Of a stretch of DNA of 64,000 nucleotides, positions 11,701 through 35,700 are shown one piece after another. Every line of letters starts with the position of its first letter. The first letter of the stretch is position 1. The notes below the pieces were generated by a model. That model ran no database searches, was not told the DNA's origin, and saw nothing but the letters and a program-made list of their open reading frames with translations. The translations under genes and the position numbers were made by a program. The stretch is from Volvox africanus (taxonomy: Eukaryota > Chlorophyta > Chlorophyceae > Chlamydomonadales > Volvocaceae). The stretch is from NCBI GenBank assembly GCA_030268105.1, contig BSDZ01000017.1:2646001-2710000 (forward strand). Direction: 5' to 3'.

Positions 11701-12638
11701 AACTTTTCGCGCTCGCCTGAAGTCCGCGACTATATGCAGGTGCGTAGGCAGGGTGGGGCAGGTGCCTATGGAAATTCCTATTAGAGGCGCAGATACTTGT
11801 TAGCCTGTGGAAGGTGCATGTCAAAGACTGTACAGGTCCCAAGAGTAGGCTCTGCTGCCCAATTCATTTTTCCAGAATCCACGGCTCGTTGCGCTTTATG
11901 CAATCATGCTACACGGTTTTCTGCGCATTGTGCGCTTGTCGTTTTAGACATGGCAGCCTCAGTCTCAAAAAATAGCTTTTGCGTTGCAACGTCTTAACGG
12001 ATGACGCGATGGCTGCTTAGGGTACGCGACTTGCCAGGTGCACCACGCCGTCCTATGGTGTATACCCGCAAATATACCCGCGCTTTCTATCCATATCTTT
12101 CTGACAGCTGCTCGACCTGACGGAATTGCAGGCTTCTCGCGTCGTGGAAGCGCTGGTGCTGCTACTGGACCATAGCAATACCGAGGTGCTCTACTCGGTG
12201 TGCGGCACTCTAATCAACTTCACCATGGACGCCTCACGCAAGCATGTGCTAGGTACACTGGGCGGCACTTCACGGCTCGTGGAGGTGCTCAGCCGCACTG
12301 TAGCACAGGGCGAGCTGGGCGAGCGAGACGAGGCCATTATTGGTGTGGTGTGCAAGGCGTTATTTAATGTAGCCTCCGCCGATGACGGCCCTGTGGCGGC
12401 AGGGCAAGCTGCCTCCGGAGACTCGTCGGCGTTTCAGGGGTCAGGGTCCATAGGGCAGTCAATTAGCGGTTTCACGCTTGAGGAGATTGCGGAGGTGCTG
12501 TCGTTGGTGGAGGCGCTGGAAGGCAGTGGGGTGGCGGACACTGAGGAGATGGCGACCGTGCTGGGACGGCTGGCAGCTCAGATGCGGCGGCTGCAGCAGA
12601 GGATGGTCTCCGCTGAGCTAGAGGCGCTACCCGAGTAG
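5750..12638 (+). CDS. ARMC2: ARMC2, armadillo-repeat protein (ciliary)
   Basis: ARMC2 is known in Chlamydomonas and mammals as a factor needed for motile cilia, delivering radial spokes by intraflagellar transport. The start MPPPKVADEGNPYEL at 5750 leads into the ARMC2 N-terminal motif (ISVVRAAKASLKEPTRPVTP, then NRPSTSYSVSGSKSF), a Ser/Gly/Pro-rich middle (one 1-kb exon, 6924-7923), then armadillo repeats (for example VAFVLGNLTTTSNE, LVLNTVCALTNLSYY, ARVYGNFSRS, VCGTLINFTMD). Exons: 5750-5832, 5899-6012, 6093-6157, 6329-6389, 6498-~6534, ~6563-6688, 6924-7923, 8896-9093, 9513-9635, 10004-10270, 10510-10611, 10766-10875, 11095-11341, 11602-11739, 12132-12638. Phases match except between exons 5 and 6, whose boundary I could not resolve. 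Predicted length is about 1,050 residues against ~870 in man; the excess is mainly low-complexity. From intron 7 onward it lies in duplication unit 1. Confidence 0.93.
8363..8423. repeat. Intronic hairpin (26-nt arms), copy 1
   Basis: Left arm 8363-8388 and right arm 8398-8423 are inverted repeats of 26 nt with one mismatch around a 9-nt loop, in ARMC2 intron 7. It is duplicated at 24732-24792. The arms would form a long near-perfect stem in RNA. It could be the end-to-end remnant of a small inverted-repeat transposon or a small-RNA hairpin; nothing decides between these. Confidence 0.85.
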
Positions 12639-14288
12639 GGCAGCAGGGGCCCACAGCCCGTAAAAGGGGCAGGTGTTGGTACGAGATGTGTTGGTACGAG
12701 ACATGTGGAGGTAGAGGATGAGTGGCAACACTTCAGCTTAAGGTGGTATGTGCGTGGCAGTATAGAAGGTGTGTAGAAGGTTGGTAGCAACCGGGGCCTT
12801 ATGGTGATCGATGCTGATAGCAAGTGTCTTCCTAGTAATGCGGGCCAAACATGTGTCACACCGCTGATTATGGGGGACGTAGATCTTAAGAAGATGGAGC
12901 TGCGCTACCTGTCTTAGCATGGCAGACTGCAGCAGCATGTGTTGTGGATTATGACCGCATTACCGGGGAAGCGTGTCTGCGCCCCACATGATGCTTGTTT
13001 GACTCGTACCTAACAGCCATTGGCATTGTCTGAAAGTAGGCTGTTCGAAGGTTTACCGCTTATGAACGAATCGAGGGGATTTCGTTCAGTTTCTTGTCTA
13101 TACAACCTTGCGATAATCGGCACGCAGTCGGAGGCAGCTCCAGGCAGGGCATTCTGGCTGCAAAAGGTCGGGTGGGGTGGGGTAAGTCATTGATGTGCGA
13201 GAGTTATGTCATTCTCTGTTAGTTGCACGATACTACTACATAGCTGTTAAGTAACCTTGAGGGTCAGGACTACGGTTTCAACAGTGCGGTCACAAGTCTA
13301 TTGATTAAGTGCTCCGAAAACGAGTATTAAGACCGTCATCGCACGTGCTAGGATTGTGGTTTTTAATACGAGCTGCAAACTGCAGGTTTTATAATGCGGA
13401 TCACTTTTGAAGGGATGTACCCGATGGAAGCACCGTATTGGTTTTATCCGTATATCGGTTACGGCTTCACTTTTACTGCCAGGAAATGATGGAACGTTAG
13501 AAAGCAGTTTCCCAAATGCACGAGCTATTGTTTTGCAATGAGGTTTCCGGTATCTTTTGGTCAGCAGATTCTCCTGTCCAAAGACAAAGCAAAGCGCGCC
13601 GAAACGAAAGCATTGGCAGCAGCGCCTTGGAAAGTTTCACCGAGCGTTGTCACTCAGTAGAAGAGTTGATAGATGAATGTTTTCATTTGTACCTATGCCC
13701 GTTCTCGGGTGTAGGGAGCTGGAAAGTGCACTTGCGAAACCAGAGATTGTAACCTGTGACCGACGTCCTAGAGGCTACATGCTGCATTGAGCAGATGCAT
13801 GTGAGCTGCAGGCTTGCTCATTCACTAGGGTATCGAAAGCAAAATGCGTTCATTTAGTGTTTGGACCGCGAAACGCTGCAGCCAGTCCTGCATTTACGTA
13901 GGCATATTTGGATCTGCCCAAAGGCAGTGAACGAACACCGTGTACAAAAGGGCATTTACGCATGTAACCTGGAGATTGAAGAACCTATGGGCAAGTGACG
14001 GTGCGCCTTCCCAGCAGCGCAGCAAGGGCACCTTAAAAACAGTGTGCAAACAAACTTTATGTAGGATCTGAAGGGTAATTTGTGTGCCGCCAATGTACAT
14101 GAGGGCACGTTTGGGCGGGCAACATGCTCCAGGAGTGGTCGTTGTTGCCGGACGCACCTTCATGCAAGGCGGAACAAGAGTCTGCAGTTGACCCGTTTCT
14201 TGACTTAAGAGGTTCCCCGGAATCTTAATACATAGACTTATTGACAAAGCCGTAATATTTGACGCCTGTTGTTAAAGACCTTTCACGA
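12639..14288. other. ARMC2 3' flank and 14-3-3 5' flank
   Basis: No further coding exon was recognised between the ARMC2 stop and the 14-3-3 start. The region presumably holds the ARMC2 3' UTR (a TGTAA element near 13748 is a candidate poly(A) signal) and the 14-3-3 promoter. It has no counterpart in unit 2, where it is deleted. Confidence 0.5.
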
Positions 14289-15688
<1,400 letters not shown>

Positions 15689-16243
15689 TAGTCATGCTCA
15701 CCTTAGGTCGTCGGACAGGGTTGTAGCTGCCAGGACTGGCAGTGTATAATGAGGGATCCGTCCGGGGATATGCTGGGAAAGGGTAACCTTGCGATAAAAA
15801 CGGCGCGAGAGGGCCACAGCCACCCAGAGCACGCATACCTTGGCGAGTATACACCATTCTTTCGGCGTCGCTGGTGACTTGTTGAATGTTACCGGAAGTT
15901 GCCGGGGTAAACTCGACTTCTTTGATTTCGTGGGTGTCCATTTGAGTCGAGGAATCTGGGATGTTGCTTAGTACTGTATAGCACACGTAAGATTGGAGCA
16001 TGGGGGTCAATTCCTAGTTTTGTACTTCGTCGTACGCGACTGTGTAGACGCAAACCAGGCCCTTAACGTTCGGGCGCTGGTTTCAATCACGCGTGCATTC
16101 ATGGTCAAGGAGAGGAGCGTTAGTACCGGCAAGGCACATCTGCCACCACCAGTAAACTTGATGGACACAATACCCCGCTCTTTCAACATTTCTTCGTCAA
16201 ATTTTTATGCATCTCGTTGTGTATTATCATGATAAGTATTACA
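15689..16243. other. Tail-to-tail intergenic stretch
   Basis: Sequence between the stop of 14-3-3 (+) and the last exon of the SFI1-like copy (-). No exon was recognised. Most of it is missing from unit 2, where only short pieces (around 26661-26796) remain. Confidence 0.5.
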
Positions 16244-19200
16244 CTAACGATTAAGGTGAAAATCAGCTTTTTTAGATTTCCATCTCTTCAGAAATGAGAT
16301 TTTAGCCGAATATTTTCGAAAGCTCGTAAACGCCCGCCGCAACAGTTGACGCCGCCACCATTCTTCTGCAAGTTGATTTTCGGCGTACCTTTTCCACAAT
16401 GGAAGTGTAGTTGCATCCATACTACTCACATCGGAGGGCAAATCTTGCAACGTCACGTGAGAAGATGCTGAGACGATCTGAGATTCATCTGCGGACAGGA
16501 TCACTTGGATGAGAAATGGTCAAGGTTGGCTACCACTAGTGCACACATCATGATACGCACCTAGATCTGTGGGAGTAGATGCAGCATCCGAAGGAATGTA
16601 GCCGTTGGCAGGGCTTCCCCAAGGATTCATGCTTTCGTAGGAACTGTAGGACCGCTGTAGCGCACCCCTGCCAAGCTCTGCGCCTGCTTCTGGCAGGCAT
16701 GGCTCGAGGGCCAGGACTTGCGCCACACCTCCGCCAGACACTTGTACCTCTTCCATCCGATAGCGGCCATGAAGCATGTGGGTTTCGGATATAGTGGATG
16801 ATGACGGCGTCTGCATCTGCTCATGTATAACCCCGGCAGCTGCACTGGACTTCACTTGCGCCTCAGTGACGACACAGCTTGCTCGGTGGCGTGCGGGGTG
16901 AGAATCTGTAGGCAGCAATGCACCAGAGATGGCTGCGAGCAGCGGTACTTGGCGTCCCCCCAGACGATTACAGGCCCGATGTGTACGAACATCCACAGAC
17001 AACAAGGTCCTCATCAGCGTATCCGTATTTGCCCGGGTGCTGAGCGCGTGAGCACGCCACCCCGCCATACAGTGGCGCAGCCTCCGCCTGGTATCGTGGG
17101 CGACTGCCCGGGATAAGCCACAATGGATGCTGCTAACGTAGCCGGACAGGCAGCGCAGAACATGGAGGCCCAGAGTGCGTTCGTAATGCAGCGCCGCAGC
17201 CGACAACAGGTAGCCCTTGACGCGAATCTCTCCAACGAACTCGGCCCACGTCGCCAAGCTATTCCGCAGAAGCCGCCTGTGGCAGTGCCCAGAAATACAA
17301 TTAGCAACAGCTGAGACAAACGCTAGGCGAGGGATTGCAAGGCGTCCCTGAGACCTCCTAGCGAGACAAATGCTTTGCAGGGCCCATCGCAAATCTACTC
17401 TCGGTCCGCTGCAAAGATTGATAGCATCGGAAGATTGATAACATAGGAAGTTTTACCTCACAGAACTCCCTAATCTCAGGAAGCGTTCCATTGACCCACT
17501 TAAGTTGGCCCTGTAACCTTGCACCTGTAACGTCTCGCCACGAATGCAGCACAGGCGAGCCGCAAATGAGCAAAACCAGTACAACCAGCTAGGTCAAGCG
17601 TCAGGCCTTATGATTTGGCTCGTAGTGCGTGCGTGGATGCCGCGGCTCAGCAAGTCCGATGGACCTACCTGTACGACTCGCTTAATTGTGCCCTAAGGCC
17701 CTTCAGTGTGCAGCGCATTAACCATCGGCAGCGCACATCGGCCTCGCCTGCAGCATATCCCTTCACCCGCAAGCGCCGCCGCAGGTTGCAAAGGCTGTTG
17801 GAGGACTCACGCTGCTTGCACGCCAGCAGCCTCCAGGCGCGCAGAAACCGCATCGTCAGACGTTTAACGTAGCGCTCCCGCCACGCCAGTTCTACGGCGG
17901 CCTAGCACGGTTGTACGAAGAAGGGAAGAAAGGGGCCCTCTGCAAGGTTGTACCAAGGCATCGCGGGTATTTATGTTGAGATCCGGTAAAGTCCGGTGAA
18001 GTCGGTGACGCATCATATTACAACAAGTCCTTCACGGCCCCTGCATTAGACAAGCAAGCGTTGCAACAAGAACCCGGGGACCATAACCTTGTACCCATAG
18101 GGATCTCACTGCACCTGCCACGCGGCGAAAACCCGAACTCGGAGCAGTGACGTGCGGAACGCTACTGCCACTTGCTCATTGATGCGCTGGCTGCGCTTGT
18201 CCAGGTGGTACGCTCGGTATTGCAGCAGCTGGTCGAAGGCGTGGCGCAGTGTGTCAAATTCGTCGCCAAAGCTGCAGCAAGCCCACAAGTGATATAACTC
18301 TGAGTCGGCCACACAACGAATTGGCGACGTTAGTCGCCGACGATATACTAGGGGTTATTCGGAAAGCTGTCCATGTGTATATATCATACATCATGTGTCA
18401 TCCGGCTTTCAAGACGGCACAACAGCTTGTTTGGACTTTTTAATGGGGTTTTAAGGGACCTCTCCTGCCTGCCAGAGATTTTGCAGCCTTGCGCACAGGC
18501 TGCTTGGTTGACCGACCTATTGTCCGCCTATTGTCCGACCTATTTAACCTCCCCATTCTCGTCTACGTACTGCGTGGACGGCTCTGGGTAATCTTCCCAC
18601 AGCATTTCGGCTCGGGTGAACACACGGAGAAGCAGCCGCCGGGCACGGCAGACGTGAAGCCATTGGTTCAGACAACACCTGTAGATCGCTTGGGCATGAC
18701 TGCAGAATGGCGGAAGGGATTAACAGGTACCTTGACTGTAGAAATGTCATTCGTGAAATACGGACGACCTCACTGTCCAGAGCATTGAGGCGCAGAACGT
18801 CGGGGCTTGATTTCCAGGAGGAAGCACGAGGTGCACGATCATGCCACTCACTAGACACGCTGGTTTAAGTTCTATGGTTTCCCCCGTACCTAGCACGGAC
18901 AGCGCGCCTCCGCCCCTCGAGTGCCTGATCCGGCCCGAGAGGCTTTAAGCCAGCGGCGCTTGCAACAATGCCAAGGCTACCCCGTGTCGGGAGTGTGCAC
19001 CGACAGGGCTGCAACCCAAGCCCTGTTCCCGAACTCACAACGTTTCCGCAACGGCTGTGCGTGCCCGTTGCTCTCGCACAAGTTGTGCGCCTCGACGCCA
19101 CCGCAACAACAGCCCCCCCAGTCGATGCTCGCGTGCGCTAGCTGCAGCCCTGCGCTTCATTACCTACGACGATGAACAAGTAGGGTGTCTGCTTCCTCGA

Positions 19201-19802
19201 AGCCGGAAAAAGGGCGGGGCCCCCACATTCCGTACAGGCCGGTTACTTCACAATGAAACGGTTTGAAGTTTGCGAGTTTACGATGATGCCCGCTCATGAC
19301 GTTCAGCAGGCAAACGACTGCGAACGCAAGGGCAGGGACCTCACTATTCCACGCCGTCGTACAAATTTTAATCCCATCACCACAGACACAAGAACCCGCG
19401 CTCAGATTTCAAACACTCAAACGGGACCTCACGCCCCTCATGCCGTCGTACACATGTCAATCATGACGTGTCAATACACACACTGTGAAATCAGAGCTAC
19501 CTTACTCGAACCTCCAACAATTACCGGGTATTAGCCCGGCCGTGTCTGTGGGGCCGCATCGCCGCCCATCTGGTTTGTGTATGGGTCTTGGGTCATATGC
19601 CGGGAAGCGGCCAGTGGCAGCATCGTGCCGCGTCATTAGCAATTGGATGCATTATTACGCTACATGTCGTCCATGCAGCAGCCGTCCAGCCCCCATACCC
19701 CACACGGCCACTCTCCCAGCCTGCCGTTCCACGAAATTCAAATCCCTCCGCCCCGTCCACCTGCTTGATTGGGGACAGCATGCATGACCATCAGCCTCGC
19801 CT

Positions 19803-20705
19803 TCACCGCAGGGAACCCCAGTCCGGCTCAATGCCCGTCGGGCCGGTCGGCAGAGTGTTGCCCTGCTGCATCATCTCGACCGCGTTGATGGTCGCCAAGA
19901 GGAGGCCGGGGTCATCCTGGCGACCAACGGCATACGCCCAGTTCTGCAGCGCCACGTTAAGTACGCTTCCCAGGCCGTGGAACAGGAGCCACTCCTGGTG
20001 CTGCACCGGAATGTTCCAATACCTATCGATCGTGATGGCTCCGGGGATGCAATTGATACAGCCGGTACGCTGGGAACACGCCGTGGCAAGCGCCTCCACC
20101 AGCCGTGCCCACCCCTCCGGCCGTGGCCACGGGAAGATGGCCCCCGACACGTCCGCTGGGTAGAAGGTGTCGACAATGAGCGCCATGTACGCCCACGACA
20201 GCGTGGCGTTCTGGATGTTGGTTGGGAGGGCTCCCGCCAGCAGGGTATGCCCGTACCATTTCGCCGGGCTGTAGCCGTCCGCACACAGCCCGTGGGTCAG
20301 GGTGCCGCCGACCTGGAAGGTTGGCCGGATACGGGTCCGCCCCAACAGCCTATTCGCCACCGTGTCTGCTGCCCGAAGAACCGGGTCTTCGACCGGTCTG
20401 GAGGTTGGCCACGCACCCTGGGCTGGTGCTGGGCCAGCTACACCGGTACGCCCTGCCACCGTCGCTGTCGCCTGGGCCCCGGGTTGCGGCCCAGACCCTG
20501 ATGGTGCGGCATACCGCTCCCGATGCTCCCGTTGCTGCTCCCTGTGCTGCTGCTCCCTGTTCCACTGGTCCCTGTTCCGCTGGCCCCTGTGCCGCTGCTC
20601 CCGGTGCCGCTGCTGCTCCTGCTCCTGGTGCTCCTCGAGCTGCCCATGCATCTCCTGTGGTCCTCCGGCCTCTGTCAGCTCCCCGCCCCCTCCTGCCGTG
20701 TGCAC
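19803..20705 (-). CDS. Unidentified protein, Q/R/E-rich N-terminus and compact C-terminal domain
   Basis: Open frame of about 300 codons ending at 19803. Residues ~20-70 form repeats rich in Gln, Arg, Glu and His. These are followed by Ala/Pro/Gly-rich linker and then, from about residue 110, a compact-looking domain with aromatic and hydrophobic spacing (for example LSWAYMALIVDTFYPADVSG and EWLLFHGLGSVLNVALQNW). I do not recognise the fold. The frame probably continues upstream through the AT-rich stretch at 20757-20865, which looks like an intron, into the frames at 20867-21165. Its restriction to the insertion suggests a transposon-encoded protein, but no catalytic motif supports that. Confidence 0.35.
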   Translation of the reverse strand: MHTAGGGGELTEAGGPQEMHGQLEEHQEQEQQRHREQRHRGQRNRDQWNREQQHREQQREHRERYAAPSGSGPQPGAQATATVAGRTGVAGPAPAQGAWPTSRPVEDPVLRAADTVANRLLGRTRIRPTFQVGGTLTHGLCADGYSPAKWYGHTLLAGALPTNIQNATLSWAYMALIVDTFYPADVSGAIFPWPRPEGWARLVEALATACSQRTGCINCIPGAITIDRYWNIPVQHQEWLLFHGLGSVLNVALQNWAYAVGRQDDPGLLLATINAVEMMQQGNTLPTGPTGIEPDWGSLR

Positions 20706-20756
20706 CTGCTGTGGCGCAGTGACGGTGCCGCCAACACCGGCAACGCCCCTATAACC

Positions 20757-20865
20757 TTATTTATTTTAAGTGTTGTAAAAACTATGACGGCAAAAATTAT
20801 GAATTTAATCAATTAATCAATTTTAATTTTATGGTCATTTTACCATTTCTTTTTTTAACTTACGG
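20757..20865. repeat. AT-rich island inside the GC-rich insertion
   Basis: About 110 nt of almost pure A/T sequence with GTAAGT-type donor and AG acceptor possibilities on the minus strand at its two edges. It is most simply an intron of the unidentified minus-strand gene. Confidence 0.4.
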
Positions 20866-21161
20866 TTCGCCGAATGGTCGTTGACATGAGCCGCCGCCCC
20901 TTCGCCAGTGCGTTGGCGCATCCGCCTGACATCCCCATCAGCTTCGGCGGCCGTCTCTGGCTCGAGGGGTCGCTTGCGGCCACCACAGGGTGCCGGTCCG
21001 GCATTCCCCGCCTGCCCATCGGCGGTAGAGCGGCCACCGCTGCGACCACTGTGGCCTCCCCGACCTCCCCTCCCGCTGCCGCTCCTGCTTTGTCATGTTG
21101 TCACTGCGCTGCTGTTGGTAGACAGCGTCGGCGGCTCGCTCCTGCTGCAGCTCCTCCTCCG

Positions 21162-22792
21162 TCATGTTGGCGCGGCGCTGATGTTGGCCGCCAGCTCCCG
21201 CTGCCGCTCAGCTGGCGCCTGGTTGCGACGGATCCGTGACATGGCACGTCGTACACGCGCACGGTCATTGGTGTCAGGCGATACATAGGTGCACCCGGGC
21301 GTGATACTAGCCCTGCGGCCCCGGACAGCTGGTGTAAGTGAAGGTATGCTGGTTGCCGTTGGATCCTCAGCGCCCGCAGGATGGTCCTCCATGTCCTCGC
21401 CTCTGGGGCCTTGGGACCGCTGCGGTGGGAAGCATGGTGCGTTGGTTGCTAGGTCGTCACGCTCTCCATGGCTTCGGCCACGATTACGGCCGCCACGGTT
21501 CAGAAGTTGGCCACGACGGCGGGAGTGGAGTGCGGCCGGTGAGGGTTCCGCGACACCCAAAGAGAACACCTGGCCAGATTGGGTAGGTCCGGGGTCATGA
21601 GGCGGGGCTTCATCCTCCGGCGCGGCCATTCCAGCGGCGAGTATAGCCGCAGCAGCACCGAGCTGCAGGAGAGGGCTGGGAGGTGGAAGCGTAGATGGGG
21701 TTGTGGCTGGCGGGGGGGACAGTGGAGGTAGTCCTGAATGGGTATCGGTGATGGAGGGTGAGGGTGAGGGGCGGCCCAGATAAGAGTGGTAGGGCAACGG
21801 ACATCCACAGGCAGCTATCACCGTACACCATGTGATACCAACCCACATGACGTGGGCTGGGCAGCATATCCACATATTCAGCAGGCACCGCGGGTCGTTG
21901 TGCGAATGCGTTACAGCCAACATGCACCATCCGTCCAACCCCTGTAACCAGGAGGATCAACCACGAATCCAACTGGAGGCCCCCAGGGCCGATGCAAATA
22001 CACATATCATGCATGCGACCCACACTCACCGTGGGTACCAGCGACTCGTCGACGCTGCATGAGGATGTCTTGTGCGGTCGTCACACCCAGCGGCGCCTGC
22101 TGGGTCGTGCCGGCGGAGGCAGCGGCGGCAAGGGGAGACCCTCCACAGACAGTGGTCGTCACTCCGCGCCCCGCGGCAGCAGGTACTGGGGCTTGCCGTG
22201 GTGACCCGACCGCGCCCAATGGGCGTGTGAAATGGCCAGGCGACAGCGGCTGGGCGGGAGGCACGACCGGCCGGACGGGAGACGCCAGAAAAGTGACAGT
22301 CGTACTGCCAGGGGGCCGCAGGGAATCCCCACCGAGCTGTGCTGCAGTCCACGTGGCGCTGCTGCCGTGAAGGGCCCCCACGGCATCATTTGTCGGATTA
22401 ATAAAGGTGTTGACGATATCGGCTGCGGCGCCACCAAGGCGGCCCGCCTGCCGTGGCTGGGCCTGCAACTGCTCAAGTAGGACAGCGCCCTGGATGGTCG
22501 CTGTCGCATGCTGCCAAAGCCGTTCCTCTGCATCGTGGTGCAGAGGAGCCGGCCCATGGTGCTCTCCGCTGCAGCCCGCCGTGTTATGCATCTCCGTGGT
22601 GCCCAGGCGCTTGCCAGGGCGTCGGAGCAGCGACCTGCGCATCAGGCCGCGCAACCGTAGGTGGGTCAGCAGCCATAGGTGGGTCGGCAGCTGAAGCCGA
22701 AGGCGGCTGCGTCCTGGAAGCCGGGCAGCGGAGCTGTGATGAATCAGCAGCTGCAGCCGTGCAGCCGGCCGAGCATCCAGATCCACCATCAC
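21162..22792 (-). CDS. Unidentified minus-strand coding stretch within the insertion
   Basis: Two open frames (about 22792-22030 and 21662-21162) look coding, being low-complexity but with sustained frame. The first reads stretches such as GGAAADIVNTFINPTNDAVG and ends near a good GTGAGT donor at about 22029. The second starts near a TGCAG acceptor at about 21663 and reads Gly/Arg/Glu-rich sequence including AMSRIRRNQAPAERQREL. The phases between them do not agree with a simple splice, so the structure is unresolved or the gene is broken. No domain was recognised. Confidence 0.25.
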
Positions 22793-24731
22793 GGCCGCTG
22801 CAGGGCACTCGGTCGGGGCGTCTAGTAGAGATTTTTGGCATGATACGAGCGAATTCGCAGCGAGGTTACTCGTTACTAATTGCCAGTTACTAGTTACTAG
22901 CTACTAGTTACGGGGGCCGTAGGCAAGATGTTATTTATTTACATAAAATGCGCGTGTGCTCTAAGGCTTGCAGAAGCAAGATGTGTTCGCTGAGAGTAAA
23001 CAACGGATCGCGCGCGTTGGCGGAGGCCAACGTCGCAAGTGACGGGCCCGTCAATCCGGTGAATAATTGAGTGGATGTATCTTAATTTTTATGTCTGAGG
23101 AATTTCGGGATTATTTGCCACACACGCACCAAGGGATCGTCAGCAACGCCTGCGGGCGCCGCGCGAATCGGGTGGATCCCGGGTGCATTTGCCGCACCGA
23201 TGGCCAGTACGGCAGACCGTTTGCATCATTTGCAAAGCGAACGGCGAGGACGTCAAGTGTTACAGTGTCGCCAGTACTACGGATGGAAAGCATTAAGCTG
23301 TATTTCCGAAATGCCTGCGGCTTCATCAACTCAACCCACAGCATCGAGCTCCATGTCGGCACTGTGGAACTCTTCTGCCCCGAGAATTGGCTTAAATTAA
23401 TTGGATTAAATAATACACAACGTTACATTCTTTGTAGATAATTGTAAGCAAATTCGTCCATCTGCTGGTGGCAAATCGCCATGCCTGTGAGAGCAGCTTA
23501 GTCACCCATACTGGTTGTTCGATCATTTCACGCCATCATGCCAGAATTCTATTATGAGAGACGCGGCACCTTTTGGAATGAAATTTAGGCCGAGAGGCGT
23601 TAATGTGACCTTGACCGGGGTCAATGGAGGCTGACAAACTTGTCATACGATTTATTAGCCAAAATAAAGATACCTTGCAATATAGAATGTAATATGTGAC
23701 CAATATCGCGTTTCCGCCCGGCGACATATTTTGTTTGGTCCGTCACATTCTTGCATGGAGACCGACGGACATGGGCAATTCCACAGGGCGGGGCCACCCT
23801 GAGCGCATCGCGCCGGGGCCCCACCCAAACAGGTGAAGCATGGAGGGACTTTGCTTTTCGGGTTACGTCGACCATATCACAGTATTTACAGAGGAATTAA
23901 AGCCTCAGGTATGTAGAGGCAACAAAACCACATCGAGCACACCTAAAGTAGGGTAGGCAACCAGGTGACCGAAGGTGGCCAAATCGCTAAGAGGATTTGA
24001 TACATTACCTGATCATCGCGCCAGATGCGCCACCTCATCAAGCAAGCCCGGAGCTTGCAATTCCGAATACGTTGCAATCCAACCTCAAGCATTGCCACCC
24101 GCAATGCAGTCCCACCCACCGCCGCTGTTGGCGCACGTACGACCGCCAGCATCGCAGGTAACGCCGGCGTGTGGCTGTGCTGGCCTCGTTCTGAATCACT
24201 GCGTGATCTGTCATCATGACTGACAGCCATTGTGAGAGCACCCACCGCAGCCATACTACACGAGTGATGCACCGCAATCGCACTGACAGGCAGCGCAGCT
24301 GTGCATTGTACTGACGGAAGGGGGGGAGGGACTGGATTGGGTCATGTCGGGTGTCGCAGAGTGGCTACCTCCATGCCCAAGCCGCACAATATCCACATGC
24401 ACCCGGCTATGTTGTCTACGCCCTACTGCCTTTCTGCGTTGAAGGATCACAAACTATGAGTTTGGTGAAGTATTGCGAGTGCTCGTGTCGGTGGAATGGT
24501 TGAATGCAGGGAAGGTTGACAGAAGATATCATGTTTAAGCGTGATTAATTGATGATTAAGATGAGACTGCGGCAAAGCTGGGGTTCTCTACGGCTGTGTG
24601 GCCGCTGTCCATAGCACAACTAGGCCATGGCACGCTTATTGAACGGCAACTAATGGGGCACCTTAGTGTCAGCGCCGTTTGCTTGTAGGGATTCGGGCTG
24701 ATTTCAGATAGGTGCACAGTGGATGCCAATA

Positions 24732-24792
24732 GATGCTTTATGTAACTATGCGCAACCCTCTTTCTTGGTTGCGCATCGTTACATAAAGCATC
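24732..24792. repeat. Intronic hairpin (26-nt arms), copy 2
   Basis: Duplicate of the hairpin at 8363-8423; arms 24732-24757 and 24767-24792 around a 9-nt loop. No host gene is intact around this copy. Confidence 0.85.
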
Positions 24793-25264
24793 AGAGATAC
24801 AAGGAGGGTTCAAGGATCTCGGTGTGCCAAGATGCGGAAGGCGCGCCCAAGTGGTCGCTGGGACAGATGGACACAGGCCTGGATTGTACCCAACGGGACG
24901 CACATCCTCTGTAGGCGGTCACGCATGATATTTCGTCATGGTGTGTCTCTTTCAGGCTTTCATAGTGGCATGTTCAGGCCCTTACGATATCCTTGCTTCG
25001 CTTGAGTAGAAATTTGTTGTCGTGGGCAACGATCTACTGACCGACTGGCACAGGCATTGGTCCCCCACGAGGCCCCACTTTCGTCCAGTCTCCTTCACCA
25101 AGGCAGCTGTAGATTCTCTTACTGGTCACATAATCTATTGCCATACCAGCTCAGTCATAGCACTCGCTACCCAATGTGCATACCTGGTTTGTCCGTATAG
25201 CCCCTTTCTGGTTGCTGATTCATGCACATCTTGTCCGTTTTCCCTTCCCTGCCCATTCGCCCAG

Positions 25265-26406
25265 GCATGTGCCATCGTGCTGCGAGTGGTGAAGAGCCGA
25301 TTGCCGCTGCTACAGACTGCCAAGCTGCTGTACCGTCTGAGCAAGGACGGCAGCAACGACGTGCTATTCCGACGGGAGGGACTGCTGGAGCCGCTGGTTC
25401 ACACAATACACATCATGGTGGCTAGTGTGCGGGGAAACCACTACCCCGCGAACATGCATGAGGTGAGTTTGCTGCTGTTTTGGGGTGGGACGGAGGCGAC
25501 GGAGGAAGAACTTGGGAAATCAACTTGTTGGCCCTGAACCCAGCTGAGCGCCGGTAGAGGGGCGCAAGATGCAGGCTACTGGGTTGATAAATCTGAATGG
25601 TAGAAGGCCACTTAGTGGATGGGGTCCGGAGGGACCAGGCAGGGGGCTGTAGGGAATTGTGGAGTTGCAGTTCTGAACCTCGGCGAAAATGGAAATAATG
25701 CTGGTTGCGCCTGGAAAAGCTTGTAGAGCTAGAGATCTTTTGAAACAAGAAAGTTGATTTGGTTGCGCTCTCGTCATGTCGTCCAGGCCGTTATCTCCGT
25801 CCGGGCCTGCATCCATGGCCTTGAACTGGTTCCTGAAGCTCGGCAGTGCTGTCCTCTATTTCCCCCGCCCTTCAATTGCAGCCCCTGGTATATATGAACG
25901 GTTGCCTGAAGAACATTTCCAATGAGGCCCATAACCAGAGGACTCTGGTCAAATTGGGCACGCTGCATGTGCTTTCGGCTCTCCTCACGCAAATGGCGGA
26001 CCAGGTGCGATGCAGTGCTGTGGTGTGATTTGGCCGGATGTGTCTACTTAGCAGGAGAAACGCGCGTGCTTGTGCTTGCTGAAACCAGAAAGGCTGGGTG
26101 GATGGAGGCCCGAGTGAGCGAGTTAGACTCTTCGGGAACTCCCTGCAGCTGATCTGCGCATTTCTAGCGCTCGACAGGACGAGGCGCTTCATAAAGCAAC
26201 CGAAAGGCTCATGGACAAGATGCAGCCAAAGAAGAAACACGCTTTAACTGGCCTGTACATCGAATCTCCTTGTTGCCCCTTCGGTAGTGCATCCCATGGG
26301 TAGGCATCATCACTTGACTCGTTGGGTATTCATGATGCCTTGTTGGGCCGCCACATCTCCCTGACTGTGCAGGCGAAGTCTGGGGACGAGGGTCTGGCAG
26401 AGTCGT
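25265..26406 (+). pseudogene. ARMC2: Truncated ARMC2 copy (exons 8, 9 and start of 10)
   Basis: Exons equivalent to 8896-9093, 9513-9635 and the first 34 nt of 10004-10270 lie at 25265-25462, 25882-26004 and 26373-26406, with their introns. Sequence is virtually identical to unit 1. The match stops abruptly inside exon 10 at 26406, followed by a 14-nt patch matching ARMC2 intron sequence (10931-10944) and then a 14-3-3 fragment. With no promoter, no 5' exons and no 3' half, this cannot make ARMC2. Confidence 0.93.
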
Positions 26407-26417
26407 ATTGTTGGAGA

Positions 26418-26660
26418 ATCCGGCTGCGTCTGGCGCTCGATTTTTCCGTATCCTTGTGGGAAACCTATAAAGTGCCAGAGCGCGCATGCCGACTTGCCAA
26501 GGAGCTGCCCAGCCAAGACTGTGACCAGCTGTGCTTATGTCGTTGCAGGCGTACGATCAGGCCTTTGCCGAGCTGCAATCTTTGGGCGAGGAGTCCTATA
26601 AGGAAAGCACGCTGATTATGCAGCATCTTCGCGACAACCTCACACTGTGGACGTCCGACA
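26418..26660 (+). pseudogene. Diverged 14-3-3 fragment
   Basis: Remnants of 14-3-3 exon 3 (26418-26504, reading IRLRLALDFSVSLWETYK and PERACRLAKE) and exon 4 (26549-26660, including [20 protein letters not shown]). The intron between them is shortened. The fragment lacks exons 1, 2 and 5, and exon 3 lacks its first codons. It differs from the intact gene by several amino-acid changes, whereas the ARMC2 fragment next to it is almost unchanged, so it may descend from a different 14-3-3 paralogue or have been altered during repair. Confidence 0.85.
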
Positions 26661-26796
26661 GAGCACATGGTCTTTATGATAGCTTTTATCGTCGGTCAAG
26701 GAAAGGAGTGTTAGCACCGGCAAGGCACATCTGCCACCACCAGTAAACTTGATGGACACAATACCCCGCTCTTTCAACATTTCTTCGTCGATTACA

Positions 26797-29700
26797 CTAA
26801 CGATTAAGGTGAAAATCAGCTTTTTTAGATTTCCATCTCTTCAGAAATGAGATTTTAGCCGAATATCTTCGAAAGCTCGTAAACGCCCGCCGCAACAGTT
26901 GACGCCGCCACCATTCTTCTGCAAGTTGATTTTCGGCGTACCTTTTCCACAATTGAAGTGTAGTTGCATCCATACTACTCACATCGGAGGGCAAATCTTG
27001 CAACGTCACGTGAGAAGATGCTGAGACGATCTGAGATTCATCTGCGGACAGGATCACTTGGATGAGAAATGGTCAAGGTTGGCTACCACTAGTGCACACA
27101 TCATGATACGCACCTAGATCTGTGGGAGTAGATGCAGCATCCGAAGGAATGTAGCCGTTGGCAGGGCTTCCCCAAGGATTCATGCTTTCGTAGGAACTGT
27201 AGGACCGCTGTAGCGCACCCCTGCCAAGCTCTGCGCCTGCTTCTGGCAGGCATGGCTCGAGGGCCAGGACTTGCGCCACACCTCCGCCAGACACTTGTAC
27301 CTCTTCCATCCGATAGCGGCCATGAAGCATGTGGGTTTCGGATATAGTGGATGATGACGGCGTCTGCATCTGCTCATGTATAACCCCGGCAGCTGCACTG
27401 GACTTCACTTGCGCCTCAGTGACGACACAGCTTGCTCGGTGGCGTGCGGGGTGAGAATCTGTAGGCAGCAATGCACCAGAGATGGCTGCGAGCAGCGGTA
27501 CTTGGCGTCCCCCCAGACGATTACAGGCCCGATGTGTACGAACATCCACAGACAACAAGGTCCTCATCAGCGTATCCGTATTTGCCCGGGTGCTGAGCGC
27601 GTGAGCACGCCACCCCGCCATACAGTGGCGCAGCCTCCGCCTGGTATCGTGGGCGACTGCCCGGGATAAGCCACAATGGATGCTGCTAACGTAGCCGGAC
27701 AGGCAGCGCAGAACATGGAGGCCCAGAGTGCGTTCGTAATGCAGCGCCGCAGCCGACAACAGGTAGCCCTTGACGCGAATCTCTCCAACGAACTCGGCCC
27801 ACGTCGCCAAGCTATTCCGCAGAAGCCGCCTGTGGCAGTGCCCAGAAATACAATTAGCAACAGCTGAGACAAACGCTAGGCGAGGGATTGCAAGGCGTCC
27901 CTGAGACCTCCTAGCGAGACAAATGCTTTGCAGGGCCCATCGCAAATCTACTCTCGGTCCGCTGCAAAGATTGATAGCATCGGAAGATTGATAACATAGG
28001 AAGTTTTACCTCACAGAACTCCCTAATCTCAGGAAGCGTTCCATTGACCCACTTAAGTTGGCCCTGTAACCTTGCACCTGTAACGTCTCGCCACGAATGC
28101 AGCACAGGCGAGCCGCAAATGAGCAAAACGCAGGGCCATTGCATGCCAATGCCGTAAAAGCATCGCAAGCCACCGGCGCCGGTGCTGAATGATTAGCCAC
28201 GCCGTATCCGCCACGATGAATCTCCAGGAGCCCAGAGCACGTGACATCAGAGACCAAGTGTAGTGCCTGCAAAGGCCCGCATACATGGTGTCAGTGTAAG
28301 CTGCAACAGAGCGTCACGCCACCATAAATAAGGAAGGCTATAAAGATAGGACTGGGTCATATCTTTATAGCCTTCCTTATTTATATATACAACTAGCCCA
28401 TTAATCGGGGGATGTGCAAGATTTTTCATGGGAACGATAATTAATTTAGTTCGTAGTTAATTAGCTAAATCGAGAAATATCTCTGTAGCCGAGCATAACC
28501 TAGCCGCAAATAGCAGTATTCTTGAAATAGCCGGAAAATATAAAACTTCTAAGTCGAACAATAGCCTTTCCGGGTTTTCAATATAGTTTTTTACTTTAAC
28601 CCTCTCTTTTTAAAACATTGGCAAAATTTGCATTTTCAGCTAAAAAGCCATATCCTGGGTGAACGCAAGGTGTGAAAATTGATTATAAGCAAATTGAGGT
28701 TGTAATTTGCCAGATACTCCAGAAAGTAGAAATTACTCATAGAGGTTTCAAATGCAAAGAAGTGCGGGGTAACAAAATGCATTTAGGCGAGAATGAAGAG
28801 GCTATGTCTATTCTAGAAGTAGGCTTCTGAATCAAAGGTCATTACTGCTTCCATTCCAGTTTTAAGATTAGTGATCTGGGTTTCAGAAATCTGGCTTTCC
28901 TCACCGATCAGCGGCCCTTACCATTTCATCTATGACGGTAAAACATGGAAATCTAAAGCAGGAAAAGATTTGTTTAGTGTTTTATCTAAAGATTTAGAAA
29001 TTCAAGGGGAGCAGATAGTATTTACAAGGAATGCTAATCGCCTTGACAGGGGCGGAATATTTAACGGTGAGCTCGGAACGATAATAAAAAATCTCCAACC
29101 CAAATGAAGATAGTCTATGAAGATGAGTCCCTAGAAGGTACATAACCGCTTTGGGATCTATTAAAATGGCTACCTCTTGATTTTCTATTACTTCATCATA
29201 TTTGCCTTTTTCATCGGCATATTCTAAGAAACATTTCAAGCCTGAACAGCCGCCGGATTTAACCCCGATTCTTATCCCCACCGCTGGATTTCCTCTTTGC
29301 TAAGGCAAATGCTTTACTTGGACAATAGCTCTTTCGGTTAGAGACATTATTTAGACTATTTTGATTCGATAGTTTCTGGTATTTGGAAAACCAATTGTTA
29401 TTTTGCTCAAGTAGCTCCCGATTCTTGCCGTGTAAACTAGCAATTAGCTTACGTAATGATTCTATTTCAGACGGTGAATTACTTATCTTGTTTTCCATTT
29501 TTAATCGTTTTAAGCTACATATGTCGGGCCCTCAGACCTTACCGGATTCCTCCAATCAATCGCTTCCATTAACATACTCAGTTGTGCTCTTGTTATTGTC
29601 AATGATTTTTGTTCATCCAACTTCGGATGAACAAAAATCATCCCTAAAAGCTTTTCTTTTCTTTAGGGATATTATCTTGTAAAACGGCTTTCATAGCAGT

Positions 29701-32700
29701 TATTTTTGCTTTTGTTTATAATCATTTACTGCTGCCTTAATAGCATCAGATTTGCGATCAACAGGTCTACGTAAGAGGACGAGGGGTGAATACTCTTCTC
29801 GCAGGAAATTTAACAATTGCCGGTAATGCTAGTAATCCAAACATTTTTGGTGAACTTAGATCGTTAAGAGGTAGATATCAAGAGTTTGGCAAGCTTTAAA
29901 CCGTTAAAGAAGGTATATTAACCTTTAATGGTCCAATTTCTCCTTCTCCTTACTTAAATATAGTGGGTGCAACAGTAGTTGGTGATACAGAAATAAGGTT
30001 GATATTATGAGGGTCTATTTTTACACCTGATATAAGAATTGAATCTACCCCATCGCTTAACCAGCAAGACGCTCTATCGCTGCTCTTATTTGGAAAGAAT
30101 CCGGATAGTATTTCTCCAGGTCAAGCTATCGATCTTGCTAACGGAATGCGAAAATTATCTGGTAATGGAGGGGGATTTGATCCAGTTGGTTTGGGCAGAA
30201 AAATTTTAGGAGTTGATGATATTAGCATTAAGGAAGATGATAATACGGAAAGCTCTTATGTAGGAGTTGGGAAATATCCTACCGATAAAGTGTATCTAGA
30301 AATAGAACAGGGTAATGAAACTTTTGGAACTAAAACTAAAGTAGAAGTAGAATTAACATCCAAAATATCTCTGGAGGCAATAACGGGAGAAAAAGGTAAC
30401 AGTTCTTTTGGAATTAATTGGCGTGTTAATTATTAGTAAAATATAGAGTTAGTATGACTAAATATATTAATAAAAAATAATAGCTGGATTTACATAAGAT
30501 ATTTTGTGTGCTAACTTAAGTGCGTTAAAGGCCAAAAAGGTGATTATACAGAATACCACCTAGTTATAATTTTACTATAAAAAGGAGTTAACAAAGTCAA
30601 GTTTTAGGTATACAATGTCAGGTTTTTTTAATAACTTAAAGACTGCTCTAGGTAAAACTTCTACCAAGCTAAGCGATGGGTTAGAAAGTATCTTTAATAA
30701 AAAGAAGCTTGATTCAAGTAGTTTAAATGAGCTGGAAGAGCTTCTGATATCTTCGGATACTGGGGTAAAGGTTGCAGTACAGATCGTTGAGCTTTTGAAG
30801 AAGAAAAAGTTTAATAAAGAGGTAACTGTTGATGAAGTCAAACTTGAACTTGCTTTGACTATCTCTGAACTTATGCAAAAGCACGAGCGTAAATTTCAAC
30901 TAAATAGTGTCCTAAACAAAGAAAGTGGCGATTGCAGCTTGTGATACTTTTAGAGCAGCAGCTACCGATCAAATAGCCAAACGGGGAGAAAAAACAGGAG
31001 CTATTTTATTTACGGGGGAAGAAAAATCTGATCCTGCAAGTGTTGCTTATAGAGCAGTGACTGAATCATATGATCATAATGTAGATGTATTGTTTATTGA
31101 TACTGCAGGTAGATTGCATAATCAAAAAAACTTAATGGATGAATTAGCAAAGGTAGTTCGGGTTATACAAAAAGTCGACCAATCTGCTCCTCAATATATT
31201 TTACTCGATGTAGTCGGGTCACCCAGGTCGCATTAATAAGGGACTGATACCCGACGAGGAGTTAGGCCTTATGTATTGACCACTACTACTCCTAATTGTA
31301 CCCAGTGATGCTGGCATGAAGAAGACTCTCAACTGCCGTTGATTAGATGATCAGATGGCTGGTAAATATGTGTCCTTAACGAATCCGTACCTGTGGAGCA
31401 TCGTGGGTCGCAGGAGCGTAGCGGAGGTTCACTACGTTTGACTCTACCAATGACAATGAAGTCATTTTGTTCCTTGAAATTTCGGACACCCGTGCGCTAT
31501 AGGTGTCACTGACGACCTTATTGCTATTACGAAGAGCGATAAGCATTATGGGGTTGGCCCCATAGTCGTCTGAGCGTTCAGGTTACCCTCGCTAATGAGG
31601 GTAAGCATCCCATCGTGGGCAGAATCACCCTTAGTCGTCGAAGGACCCTCTGTGTGTTAGGGCCCAATGAGTGCAACAAGGTCTCCCGGAGACAGCACTA
31701 CATGGATATTGGGTGCCGCGACATAACGACAGTACCGCGCGCGCATCGATATGGAGTCCAGCACAATTGGCCATTGTGCAAAAGGGAACCTATCGCCTAA
31801 GGTACCTTGTCTGTCGTACCAAGATGTCACACCAGAGGGCGGAACTGTTGCGGAGCCTATGGTTAATTTCGCGTTCGTCCGCTGAAATAAAGAACCCAAG
31901 CTTGAAGGGTGCAAAAGAAGCCTATCAAATGATAAGGGAAGGCACCCATGAATCGCTTGTGAGGCCTTGGGTGCAATCGATTGCTACTGCCGCGCAGTAT
32001 CTTGCGAACAATTCTGAGGTCGCAGCCCCCTTTTGCCAAATTATACTGATGCATTTGTCATCCAGACAGGCATGATGTGTTCAGGCACGACTGTTATGGC
32101 ACGACTAATATGCCCCTGGAGCTCCAGGTTCTACCCCGACCGAGGGCGGGCCAAAGACCCTAAAGTCAAGGGCAGGGTGCCCCCATGTCGATGGACGGTG
32201 ACGATCCCAATTAAAGTGACCTGCGAGCTGATCAGTAGCAGAGTTGACGCCTTAGTTGATTCGGCAGATTCCGCTGGATGCTGGTGGTGGGTGCTGAACC
32301 TGGGAAAACCACTGATTTCGGAGAAGTCGGCATGGGAGACTGGATGAGGGTGCCCCGAAACACCGGGGAAGGTAGGGACTGCCAGGTTAGTGGCCACGGG
32401 TGATGTACCCCCCTATTCTACACACATATTTTACTTGTTATAGATGCTACTACTGGTCAGAATGCTTTCGTGCAAACAGAAGAATTTAAGCGGCTTGTTC
32501 CAATTTCAGGTTTAGTTGTGACAAAATTAGATGGTACGGCAAAAGCTGGCGTAATTATAGGCATAGTACACAAATACTCCTTACCAGTATATTTTTTAGG
32601 AGTTGGTGAAGGGGTACAAGATTTAAAACCGTTCAGTCCTATCGATTTTGCTAAAGCGTTAGTTGGCATTAGCTAGGAATTATTATCAGCTAAGAATTGC

Positions 32701-35700
32701 TATTTATTTGTGTTGTAGTTTTTGCTTTTTTATTAAGCTTTTTTGCAAATTTAATTTGCTATGCCATATTATTTATTGTTATAGCTTTTAGTACTTAACC
32801 CCAGTTACGGATAAGAGATTTTGGGTTTAGAGGGTTTGATTTGGTATGCGATGAGAGCCGCAAAGAGAGAAGCAAAAAAGTTTGACCCACAAAAATTTAG
32901 ACCCACAAAGTTACTTTGTTTTTCCGATGATATGGATGGATTACGAAAAGTTCCATCCAATATTCCTAATCAGGAAATGGTTGCAGCTCATATGGGTAAA
33001 CCTCTTACCTCTATCCCTGATCCTTTTGGGGAAGCACTGCTGACCCAACCAGCTAGGTCAAGCGTCAGGCCTTATGATTTGGTTCGTAGTGCGTGCGTGG
33101 ATGCCGCGGCTCAGCAAGTCCGATGGACCTACCTGTACGACTCGCTTAATTGTGCCCTAAGGCCCTTCAGTGTGCAGCGCATTAACCATCGGCAGCGCAC
33201 ATCGGCCTCGCCTGCAGCATATCCCTTCACCCGCAAGCGCCGCCGCAGGTTGCAAAGGCTGTTGGAGGACTCACGCTGCTTGCACGCCAGCAGCCTCCAG
33301 GCGCGCAGAAACCGCATCGTCAGACGTTTAACGTAGCGCTCCCGCCACGCCAGTTCTACGGCGGCCTAGCACGGTTGTACGAAGAAGGGAAGAAAGGGGC
33401 CCTCTGCAAGGTTGTACCAAGGCATCGCGGGTATTTATGTTGAGATCCGGTAAAGTCCGGTGACGTCGGTGACGCATCATATTACAACAAGTCCTTCACG
33501 GCCCCTGCATTAGACAAGCAAGCGTTGCAACAAGAACCCGGGGACCATAACCTTGTACCCATAGGGATCTCACTGCACCTGCCACGCGGCGAAAACCCGA
33601 ACTCGGAGCAGTGACGTGCGGAACGCTACTGCCACTTGCTCATTGATGCGCTGGCTGCGCTTGTCCAGGTGGTACGCTCGGTATTGCAGCAGCTGGTCGA
33701 AGGCGTGGCGCAGTGTGTCAAATTCGTCGCCAAAGCTGCAGCAAGCCCACAAGTGATATAACTCTGAGTCGGCCACACAACGAATTGGCGACGTTAGTCG
33801 CCGACGATATACTAGGGGTTATTCGGAAAGCTGTCCATGTGTATATATCATACATCATGTGTCATCCGGCTTTCAAGACGGCACAACAGCTTGTTTGGAC
33901 TTTTTAATGGGGTTTTAAGGGACCTCTCCTGCCTGCCAGAGATTTTGCAGCCTTGCGCACAGGCTGCTTGGTTGACCGACCTATTGTCCGCCTATTGTCC
34001 GACCTATTTAACCTCCCCATTCTCGTCTACGTACTGCGTGGACGGCTCTGGGTAATCTTCCCACAGCATTTCGGCTCGGGTGAACACACGGAGAAGCAGC
34101 CGCCGGGCACGGCAGACGTGAAGCCATTGGTTCAGACAACACCTGTAGATCGCTTGGGCATGACTGCAGAATGGCGGAAGGGATTAACAGGTACCTTGAC
34201 TGTAGAAATGTCATTCGTGAAATACGGACGACCTCACTGTCCAGAGCATTGAGGCGCAGAACGTCGGGGCTTGATTTCCAGGAGGAAGCACGAGGTGCAC
34301 GATCATGCCACTCACTAGACACGCTGGTTTAAGTTCTATGGTTCCCCCCGTACCTAGCACGGACAGCGCGCCTCCGCCCCTCGAGTGCCTGATCCGGCCC
34401 GAGAGGCTTTAAGCCAGCGGCGCTTGCAACAATGCCAAGGCTACCCCCTGTCGGGAGTGTGCACCGACAGGGCTGCAACCCAAGCCCTGTTCCCGAACTC
34501 ACAACGTTTCCGCAACGGCTGTGCGTGCCCGTTGCTCTCGCACAAGTTGTGCGCCTCGACGCCACCGCAACAACAGCCCCCCCAGTCGATGCTCGCGTGC
34601 GCTAGCTGCAGCCCTGCGCTTCATTATCTACGACGATGAAAAAGGTGAAGCATGGAGGGACTTTGCTTTTTCGGGTTACGTCGGCTAAATCATCACAGTA
34701 TTTACAGAGGAATTAAAGCCTTAGGTATATAGAGGCAACAAAACCACATCGAGCACACCTAAAGTAGAGTAGACAACCAGGTGACCGAAGGTGGCCAAAT
34801 CGCCAAGAGGATTTGATACATTACCTGATCATCGCGCCAGATGCGCCACCTCATCAAGCAAGCCCGGAGCTTGCAATTCCGAATACGTTGCAATCCAACC
34901 TCAAGCATTGCCACCCGCCGCCGCTGTTGGCGCACATACGACCGCCAGCATCGCAGGTAACGCCGGCGTGTGGCTGTGCTGGCCTCGTTCTGAGTCACTG
35001 CGTGAGCTGCCATCATTACTGACAGCCAATGTGAGAGCACCCACCGCAGCCATACTACACGAGTGATGCACCGCAATCGCACTGACAGGCAGCGCAGCTG
35101 TGCGTTGTACTGACGGAAGCCCTGGGGGGGAGGGACTGGATCGGGTCATGTCGGGTGTCGCAGAGTGGCTGCCTCCATGTCCAAGCCGCACAATATCCAC
35201 ATGCACCCGGCTATGTTGTCTACGCCCTACTGCCTTTGTGCGTTGAAGGATCACAAACTATCCAGTTAATGACGGAATAGGAATGAGAATACTGAGTGAG
35301 ACCTACACAACCTGTGGAGAGCGTGAATGTGAGAACATCCCGATTATGGTCATTTGTAGAGACAACCCGCACAGTCTGACCAGAAATCAGGTTTTCATAA
35401 GCTCAGCATGACCACCGATCGACCATGTGATGTTCAACTCCGGCAGCGCATGACCTCGCATTGGATACCTGGAGCGCGCGAAGGCACAACCTCCTCCGGT
35501 TGAACAGCCACGCTGCGTCATCTAGTCCTCGCTGGGTTGGTGTACGTGCATTCACCAAATCCTTCGGGGGCAGGGGATAGAGTGTGCTCCAGGTCCCGGT
35601 TCCATCTGTAACACCAGAGACGTCCCGATCCAGGTCCAGACCCGCCGTCAGTGGAGTGGTGTTTCCACCACCCTTACCCGCAGCCAGCTGATCCGCAAGC

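Follow-up and report, generated by a model that had tools for sequence, protein, structure and literature searches.

In the 64,000-nucleotide stretch of Volvox africanus DNA analysed here (the window), one intron of a gene for an Sfi1-type protein holds 14 pieces of Megaira-type bacterial DNA, which come from 13 places in chromosome and plasmid and lie nearly end to end. Very probably, the endosymbiont DNA had been broken up and its shards were captured by end joining where the host chromosome had breaks.

The block that carries the shards runs from 28324 to about 33036-33045, and the mosaic of donor matches within it from 28377 to 33036. The G+C content of the bacterial part is 35.7%, against 54.1% and 57.5% in the flanks, as expected from a first-pass annotation of this DNA that had called the block AT-rich. 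That annotation had set the edges at 28385 and 33045; the right edge held, and the left one had to be moved out to 28324. The fragments it had named (iscA, tamB, ftsY, class I lysS and a TraA-like gene) were all recovered by domain or nucleotide match, together with others that it had overlooked, namely pieces of cyaY, atpF, sucB, rpoC, an IS66-family element, and genes for an MFS transporter, a biotin carboxylase and an emrA-type adaptor. Its picture of a single lodged rickettsial piece gave way to a 14-shard mosaic, and it had also passed over the host repeats inside ftsY and the tandem copy of the locus that are described below.

The block was aligned to stretches of Megaira-type genomes (G021, G022 and G024 below), and gene names were taken from NCBIfam and Pfam matches of window pieces and donor open reading frames (ORFs). 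Fourteen sharp-ended matches were obtained, 13 of them 50-270 bp long and one spanning 1.77 kb in donor terms; 11 are shorter than 150 bp. Nucleotide identity to the best donor is 83-99%. The matches reach E = 0, and chance is excluded because even the weakest of the 14 has an E-value of about 2e-13. Shards 10 and 12 adjoin in the donor, so that the 14 matches derive from 13 donor places. Genome G022 matches 13 of the shards, scattered over its 1.53-Mb chromosome and a 201-kb second contig. The features of the block are listed below; strands in the shard lines are coding strands, and identities are at the nucleotide level.

28324..28384: inverted repeat at the left edge, a fold-back with 29-nt arms (97%) and a 3-nt loop
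28377..28434, plus strand: shard 1, MFS transporter gene; 88% to G024, G022 and G021; its first bases may be a chance extension
28438..28487, plus strand: shard 2, atpF (F0 subunit b); 92% to G024
28488..28542: stretch with no donor match above chance
28543..28601, minus strand: shard 3, end of sucB; 97% to G024
28599..28664, minus strand: shard 4, biotin carboxylase gene; 98% to G024, 94% to G022; overlaps shard 3 by 3 nt
28665..28741, plus strand: shard 5, rpoC; 95% to G024, 88% to G022; blunt to shard 4
28750..28824, plus strand: shard 6, start of an unnamed ORF with no NCBIfam match; 83% to G024
28822..28884, minus strand: shard 7, emrA-type adaptor gene; 92% to G024, 90% to G022; overlaps shard 6 by 3 nt
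28885..29004, plus strand: shard 8, cyaY (frataxin); 97% to G024, 88% to G022; blunt to shard 7
29006..29118, plus strand: shard 9, traA relaxase gene; 90% to G022 C2, 88% to G021 C2 (second replicons)
29124..29352, minus strand: shard 10, first part of iscA; 92% to G024, 90% to G022; IscA domain
29357..29626, minus strand: shard 11, from the interior of an IS66-family element, lying within the iscA-iscU shard; 92% to G022
29602..29641: fold-back with perfect 17-nt arms, which are absent from the G022 donor sequence
29652..29747, minus strand: shard 12, iscA/iscU, continuing shard 10 in the donor (3-bp overlap); 95% to G024, 93% to G022; IscU ORF
29759..32669, plus strand: shard 13, 3' end of tamB and ftsY, 1.77 kb in the donor; 87-89% to G021/G022, 83-87% to G024
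32898..33036, plus strand: shard 14, class I lysS; 99% to G024, 91% to G022; LysRS domain

Shard 13 may extend weakly to about 32800. The traA shard gives only a weak RecD-type SH3 match at the protein level, and its 90% nucleotide match is to the TraA gene of a second replicon.

The relaxase piece had been taken as a hint that a rickettsial mobile element was involved. It is extremely unlikely that such an element, whether a conjugative plasmid, a Rickettsiales amplified genetic element (RAGE) or IS66, brought the genes in. The block does contain one shard of traA and one of IS66, but both are internal fragments (113 bp of plasmid origin and 270 bp, respectively), the other named shards are chromosomal and mainly from housekeeping genes, and neither an element end nor a transfer operon, nor linked transfer and transposase genes, was seen in the block. 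We therefore rejected a mobile element as the carrier.

Donor of the shards

One ftsY piece was used to scan 85 Rickettsiaceae genomes, 80 of which gave a match, some only to a weaker paralogue. The closest sequences were those of G021, G022, G024 and G023, with 79-88% amino acid identity; the next reached 68% at most. The ftsY tree, the only gene tree built, had 34 rows (the insert, L016-L018 and the 30 loci that scored best in the scan). In it the insert grouped with G021, G022 and G024 with support of 99/90, and the group with G023 added stood apart from the rest at 100/98. Judged by ftsY, a donor in the 'Candidatus Megaira'-type clade of the Rickettsiaceae is supported by the sequence comparison, in line with the Rickettsiales origin proposed earlier for the fragments. 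One member, MegNIES296 (G021), is the Megaira of Mesostigma viride, with a chromosome of 1,448,425 bases and a plasmid of 83,984 bases (PMC9098888, in excerpt).

Within this one insertion the nearest strain differs between shards, being G024 for the small shards and G021 or G022 for tamB-ftsY.

Joints between the shards

The 13 joints of the mosaic comprise two 3-nt overlaps, two blunt joints and four with 1, 3, 4 or 5 nt between the shards; the rest have 8 nt, 11 nt, 25 nt (a fold-back) and two long stretches of 55 and 228 nt, the latter partly like the donor spacer 3' of ftsY. Eight of the 13 thus lie between a 3-nt overlap and a 5-nt gap, with joint ends uncertain by a few nucleotides where the donor has diverged. 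Such tight joints are what end joining would leave. Two marks of a mosaic made by end joining were found: pieces from separate donor places at one site, and joints that are blunt, show microhomology or contain a few nucleotides.

It is unlikely that a single large Megaira insertion was later reordered and reduced by deletions and rearrangements in the host. The longest shard does keep the donor order over 1.77 kb, and ftsY contains both a deletion and an interruption, but the shards derive from places throughout a 1.5-Mb chromosome and from a second replicon, their joints are tight, and the matches elsewhere in the host genome are likewise short (medians of 100 and 118 bp).

Shards split by other DNA, and decay of the transferred genes

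Two shards are each split by other DNA lying between a short repeat of donor sequence, 3 bp in iscA-iscU and 9-10 bp in ftsY. The IS66 piece sits within the iscA-iscU shard, the halves of which overlap by 3 bp in the donor. The ftsY gene is split at 31206-32425 by two host repeat pieces flanked by the 9-10 bp repeat, with a 9-bp overlap in donor coordinates.

31196..31205 and 32426-32435, plus strand: left and right copies of the short repeat ATATTTTACT
31206..32063, plus strand: host repeat piece 1, from the interior of a longer repeat; 40 other copies at 79-99%, some partial (best 40 of 2,883 candidates scored)
32077..32425, plus strand: host repeat piece 2; 40 other matches at 95-98% (best 40 of 1,464 candidates scored)

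An intact transposon in ftsY was considered and rejected: 14 fetched copies of piece 1 remain alike beyond both of its ends, and the second half of the segment is another repeat. The segment is also unlike one transposon because no other match covers both pieces together among the best 40 of 1,136 candidates scored; one match, on host contig C15, enters piece 1 by 14 nt. Two retrotransposon-like copies in opposite orientation (54501-58261 and 59001-63956, gag-pol type by eye) are 97.6% alike over 3.35 kb, and one of their coding stretches is 75-76% like piece 1.

Another Megaira-type shard, at C5:1533031-1533707, consists of two parts that overlap by 5 bp in the donor and are split by 89 bp. 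Nesting of this kind suggests that shards already in place later suffered staggered breaks, and a single complex repair may also have produced it. The splits between short repeats point to stepwise growth of the mosaic, without proving it.

The transferred genes are decayed, with stops, a deletion and truncation in tamB-ftsY. The tamB piece contains two stops. In ftsY, an 80-bp deletion at 30918|30919 has removed the donor-encoded GVNGNGKST, which we take to be the P-loop of FtsY. At 45 synonymous and 31 non-synonymous sites of tamB-ftsY, three donors agree with one another and only the window differs. If the ratio specific to G024 (89 to 37) stands for change in the bacteria and 2.98 to 1 for neutral change, roughly 57 of these changes would have preceded the transfer and 19, or about 1.3%, followed it, a rough split from one shard. 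These decayed genes, the host exons on both sides and the position of ftsY in the tree support the earlier proposal of endosymbiont-to-nucleus transfer.

Host gene and splicing

The block is bounded by two exons of the host gene.

33133..33365, minus strand: host exon A (Sfi1-type protein); 90% amino acid identity to Vafri_2739 residues 1563-1640; donor site CAG|GTAGGT
28267..33132, minus strand: host intron of 4,866 bp, in which the mosaic lies; canonical splice sites; join fits Vafri_2739
28078..28266, minus strand: host exon B; 86% amino acid identity to Vafri_2739 residues 1640-1703; acceptor site TTTGCAG|G

Vafri_2739, a Volvox africanus protein of 2,006 amino acids that one source labels an Sfi1 spindle body domain protein, was the sole protein found for the host gene (7,989 candidates scored). 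Its matches lie on the minus strand of the window, between 41.2 and 26.8 kb. Its strain would be a relative of the host with another genome. When the protein was aligned to the window, the sequences encoded by exons A and B were contiguous in it (residues 1563-1703); because of this contiguity the predicted A-B splice fits and exon B is ancestral. The idea that exon B is captured filler was ruled out, since Vafri_2739 carries it in place. The first-pass annotation had described these two exons as agreeing in phase and the intron, at about 4.9 kb, as still removable, and the comparison agrees on both points: the intron could still be spliced out, mosaic included.

Eleven of the 14 main exon matches to Vafri_2739 have 83-94% amino acid identity, which makes a still working host gene plausible. 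The remaining three (49, 62 and 71%) are long and seemingly cross introns or low-complexity sequence. The rickettsial block would likely be dead weight that splicing removes from the transcript.

Tandem copy of the locus

The window contains a tandem segmental duplication (8081-24457 and 24457-35261). Two parts of its copy 1, of about 6 kb (10037-16103) and 4.6 kb (19180-23827), have no counterpart in copy 2, and the 5' half of the Sfi1-type gene is missing from copy 1. The part of copy 1 that corresponds to the locus has no block.

16103..19180, minus strand: 3' part of the host gene in tandem copy 1, without 28130-33045; junction 17576|CAGTA|17582

Copy 1 matches 26694-28129 at 97.0% and 33046-34644 at 99.6%. 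Its right breakpoint is the exact edge of the block, and its left breakpoint falls in exon B, 194 bp into host sequence. Positions 27950-28330 have matches at just these two places in the genome. Divergence between the copies is 0.31-0.42% in three stretches and 3.26% in a fourth, so that gene conversion may mask their age. Copy 1 may have lost the block together with exon B sequence, or the same site may have broken in both copies.

Shards elsewhere in the genome

The host genome (140,993,249 bases in 126 contigs) was searched with two donor stretches of 19,901 bases each. The stretch of the MegNIES296 chromosome gave 43 matches, 40 of them outside the locus on 24 contigs (40 of 51 candidates scored); the matches total 5,893 bp with a median identity of 89%. 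The G022 stretch gave 52 matches, 51 outside the locus on 23 contigs (40 of 78 candidates scored). The count for G022 is inflated by donor copy number because 40 of these 51 fall within one IS66 element (L172:8904-11343), and shard numbers in general may mirror copy number in the donor. Among the 91 outside matches, identities range from 70 to 99% and median lengths are 100 and 118 bp for the two stretches; the nine below 80% could be older or come from other bacteria. A control Rickettsia stretch of equal length gave eight matches at 66-76%, two of which were the ftsY of the present locus; being from the same family, this control may itself detect Megaira shards. A few shards may be host duplications, and two have an identical donor interval (17085-17172).

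Fifteen pairs of neighbouring shards within 2 kb of each other were found elsewhere, and in five of them the two shards either abut or overlap by up to 9 nt.

C21: IS66 beside tamB, 1-nt overlap
C20 and C100: 0 nt, opposite strands
C17: 6-nt overlap
C3: 9-nt overlap, donor order kept

For a 1.45-Mb donor chromosome, 40 matches per 19.9 kb project to 2,900 shards and 11 per about 17.5 kb outside IS66 to 900, so that the genome would hold roughly 900-2,900; each projection rests on about 1.3-1.4% of the donor chromosome and on part of the candidates. These matches suggest a nucleus-wide shower of endosymbiont shards.

The genome-wide matches also bear on whether the block is an assembly chimera or contamination by live Megaira. 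The published V. africanus assembly from Thailand (TH) has 141.0 Mbp in 129 gap-free contigs, from 197x PacBio and 166x Illumina reads (PMC10291315, in excerpt). If the present sequence is from that assembly, its contigs were filtered by bacterial content and a live symbiont in the culture is possible (same excerpt). Yet matches recur on many contigs, those of known size being 1.4-7.5 Mb long, with identities spread from 70 to 99%, and at the locus itself host repeat pieces lie inside ftsY and the bacterial genes are decayed, which makes a chimera or contamination very unlikely.

Discussion

In the process that we propose, endosymbionts would die inside the host cell and yield DNA shards, which would be captured at host chromosome breaks by end joining, with some fold-back synthesis. 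The mosaic would grow in more than one step, the order of steps resting on the iscA-iscU and ftsY shards: a later staggered break in an existing shard would catch new DNA and leave a donor repeat of 3 bp or 9-10 bp.

Several observations weigh against this account in its simplest form. Three parts of the block (28324-28376, 28488-28542 and about 32800-32897) have no match in the donor stretches aligned. A single donor strain is insufficient unless it was recombinant. When shards matched in both strains were counted (leaving out shards 2, 3, 6, 9 and 11), the small shards differed from G024 at 46 of 845 sites and tamB-ftsY at 267 of 1,664 (Fisher p 9e-16, gene-specific rates ignored); against G022 the counts were 83 of 845 and 193 of 1,664. 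A recombinant donor or two donors would explain these numbers. Tandem copy 1 is without not only the block but also 194 bp of host sequence, partly ancestral exon B, and no simple history fits. Elsewhere in the genome, 10 of the 15 neighbouring pairs are spaced 61-599 nt apart.

A wider proposal can be put forward tentatively, as possible rather than probable: that one to three thousand tiny shards from at least two Megaira lineages record a lasting shower, on the scale of nuclear mitochondrial DNA (numts), in a non-phagotrophic photosynthetic host, with AT-rich shards acting as magnets for new breaks and mosaics growing by accretion. If true, the genome of this green alga would preserve a dense and datable record of the symbiont DNA taken up. 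With such a record one could measure the frequency, source strains and repair route of endosymbiont DNA entry, the raw process behind organelle gene transfer. The case would also warn that a stretch of bacterial appearance in an algal assembly may truly belong to the nucleus.

One study has reportedly described gene transfer between eustigmatophyte algae and their rickettsial endosymbionts. Our searches of open-licence PMC papers gave no report of such a mosaic, genome-wide transfer in an alga. The main text of a study of Megaira diversity, as far as excerpted (PMC10132079), contains neither gene transfer nor nuclear, and Volvox appears in its references only. Rickettsial transfer to a Volvox nucleus is already known from V. 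carteri (PMC4324946); the mosaic form and the scale look new for an alga.

The insert of V. carteri EVE is a Megaira-type piece of about 9 kb with 16S, murB (a 768-bp piece), ddlB and ftsQ, in which ddlB is split by 1,021 bp of host multicopy sequence (PMC4324946, in excerpt). The present locus resembles it in that the donor belongs to the Megaira group, genes are truncated, host multicopy sequence interrupts a bacterial gene, and host DNA lies around the insert. In contrast to that single locus, it contains other genes (MurB_C had no match in a search of the present genome), 14 shards in one intron and plasmid DNA, and it is accompanied by the 91 matches elsewhere. The missing MurB_C match also makes V. 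carteri EVE an unlikely host for the present sequence.

In plants, mosaic insertions ('numins') of numts and nuclear plastid DNA (nupts) bring several fragments to one nuclear site through blunt or microhomology joints (Portugez 2018, PMC6215612, in excerpt). Separate donor fragments joined at one site by joints of the end-joining type are common to both, whereas the donor here is the chromosome and plasmid of a bacterial endosymbiont, and 11 of the 14 shards are below 150 bp. Short endosymbiont fragments across a genome are also known from Wolbachia transfers to nematodes: nearly 1 Mb of decayed nuclear pieces in Dictyocaulus viviparus (PMC4046930, in excerpt), and 12 to 653 nuclear regions per species in filarial nematodes, which in Onchocerca and Brugia amount to between 188 kb and more than 400 kb, in pieces averaging 434 bp and 2,038 bp, respectively (PMC12693587, in excerpt). 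Unlike those transfers to animal hosts, the present one is in an alga, its median shards are 100-118 bp long, and some of them are joined into mosaics. The V. africanus case thus combines, in an alga and at a smaller shard size, mosaic joints, a host-split gene and genome-wide fragments.

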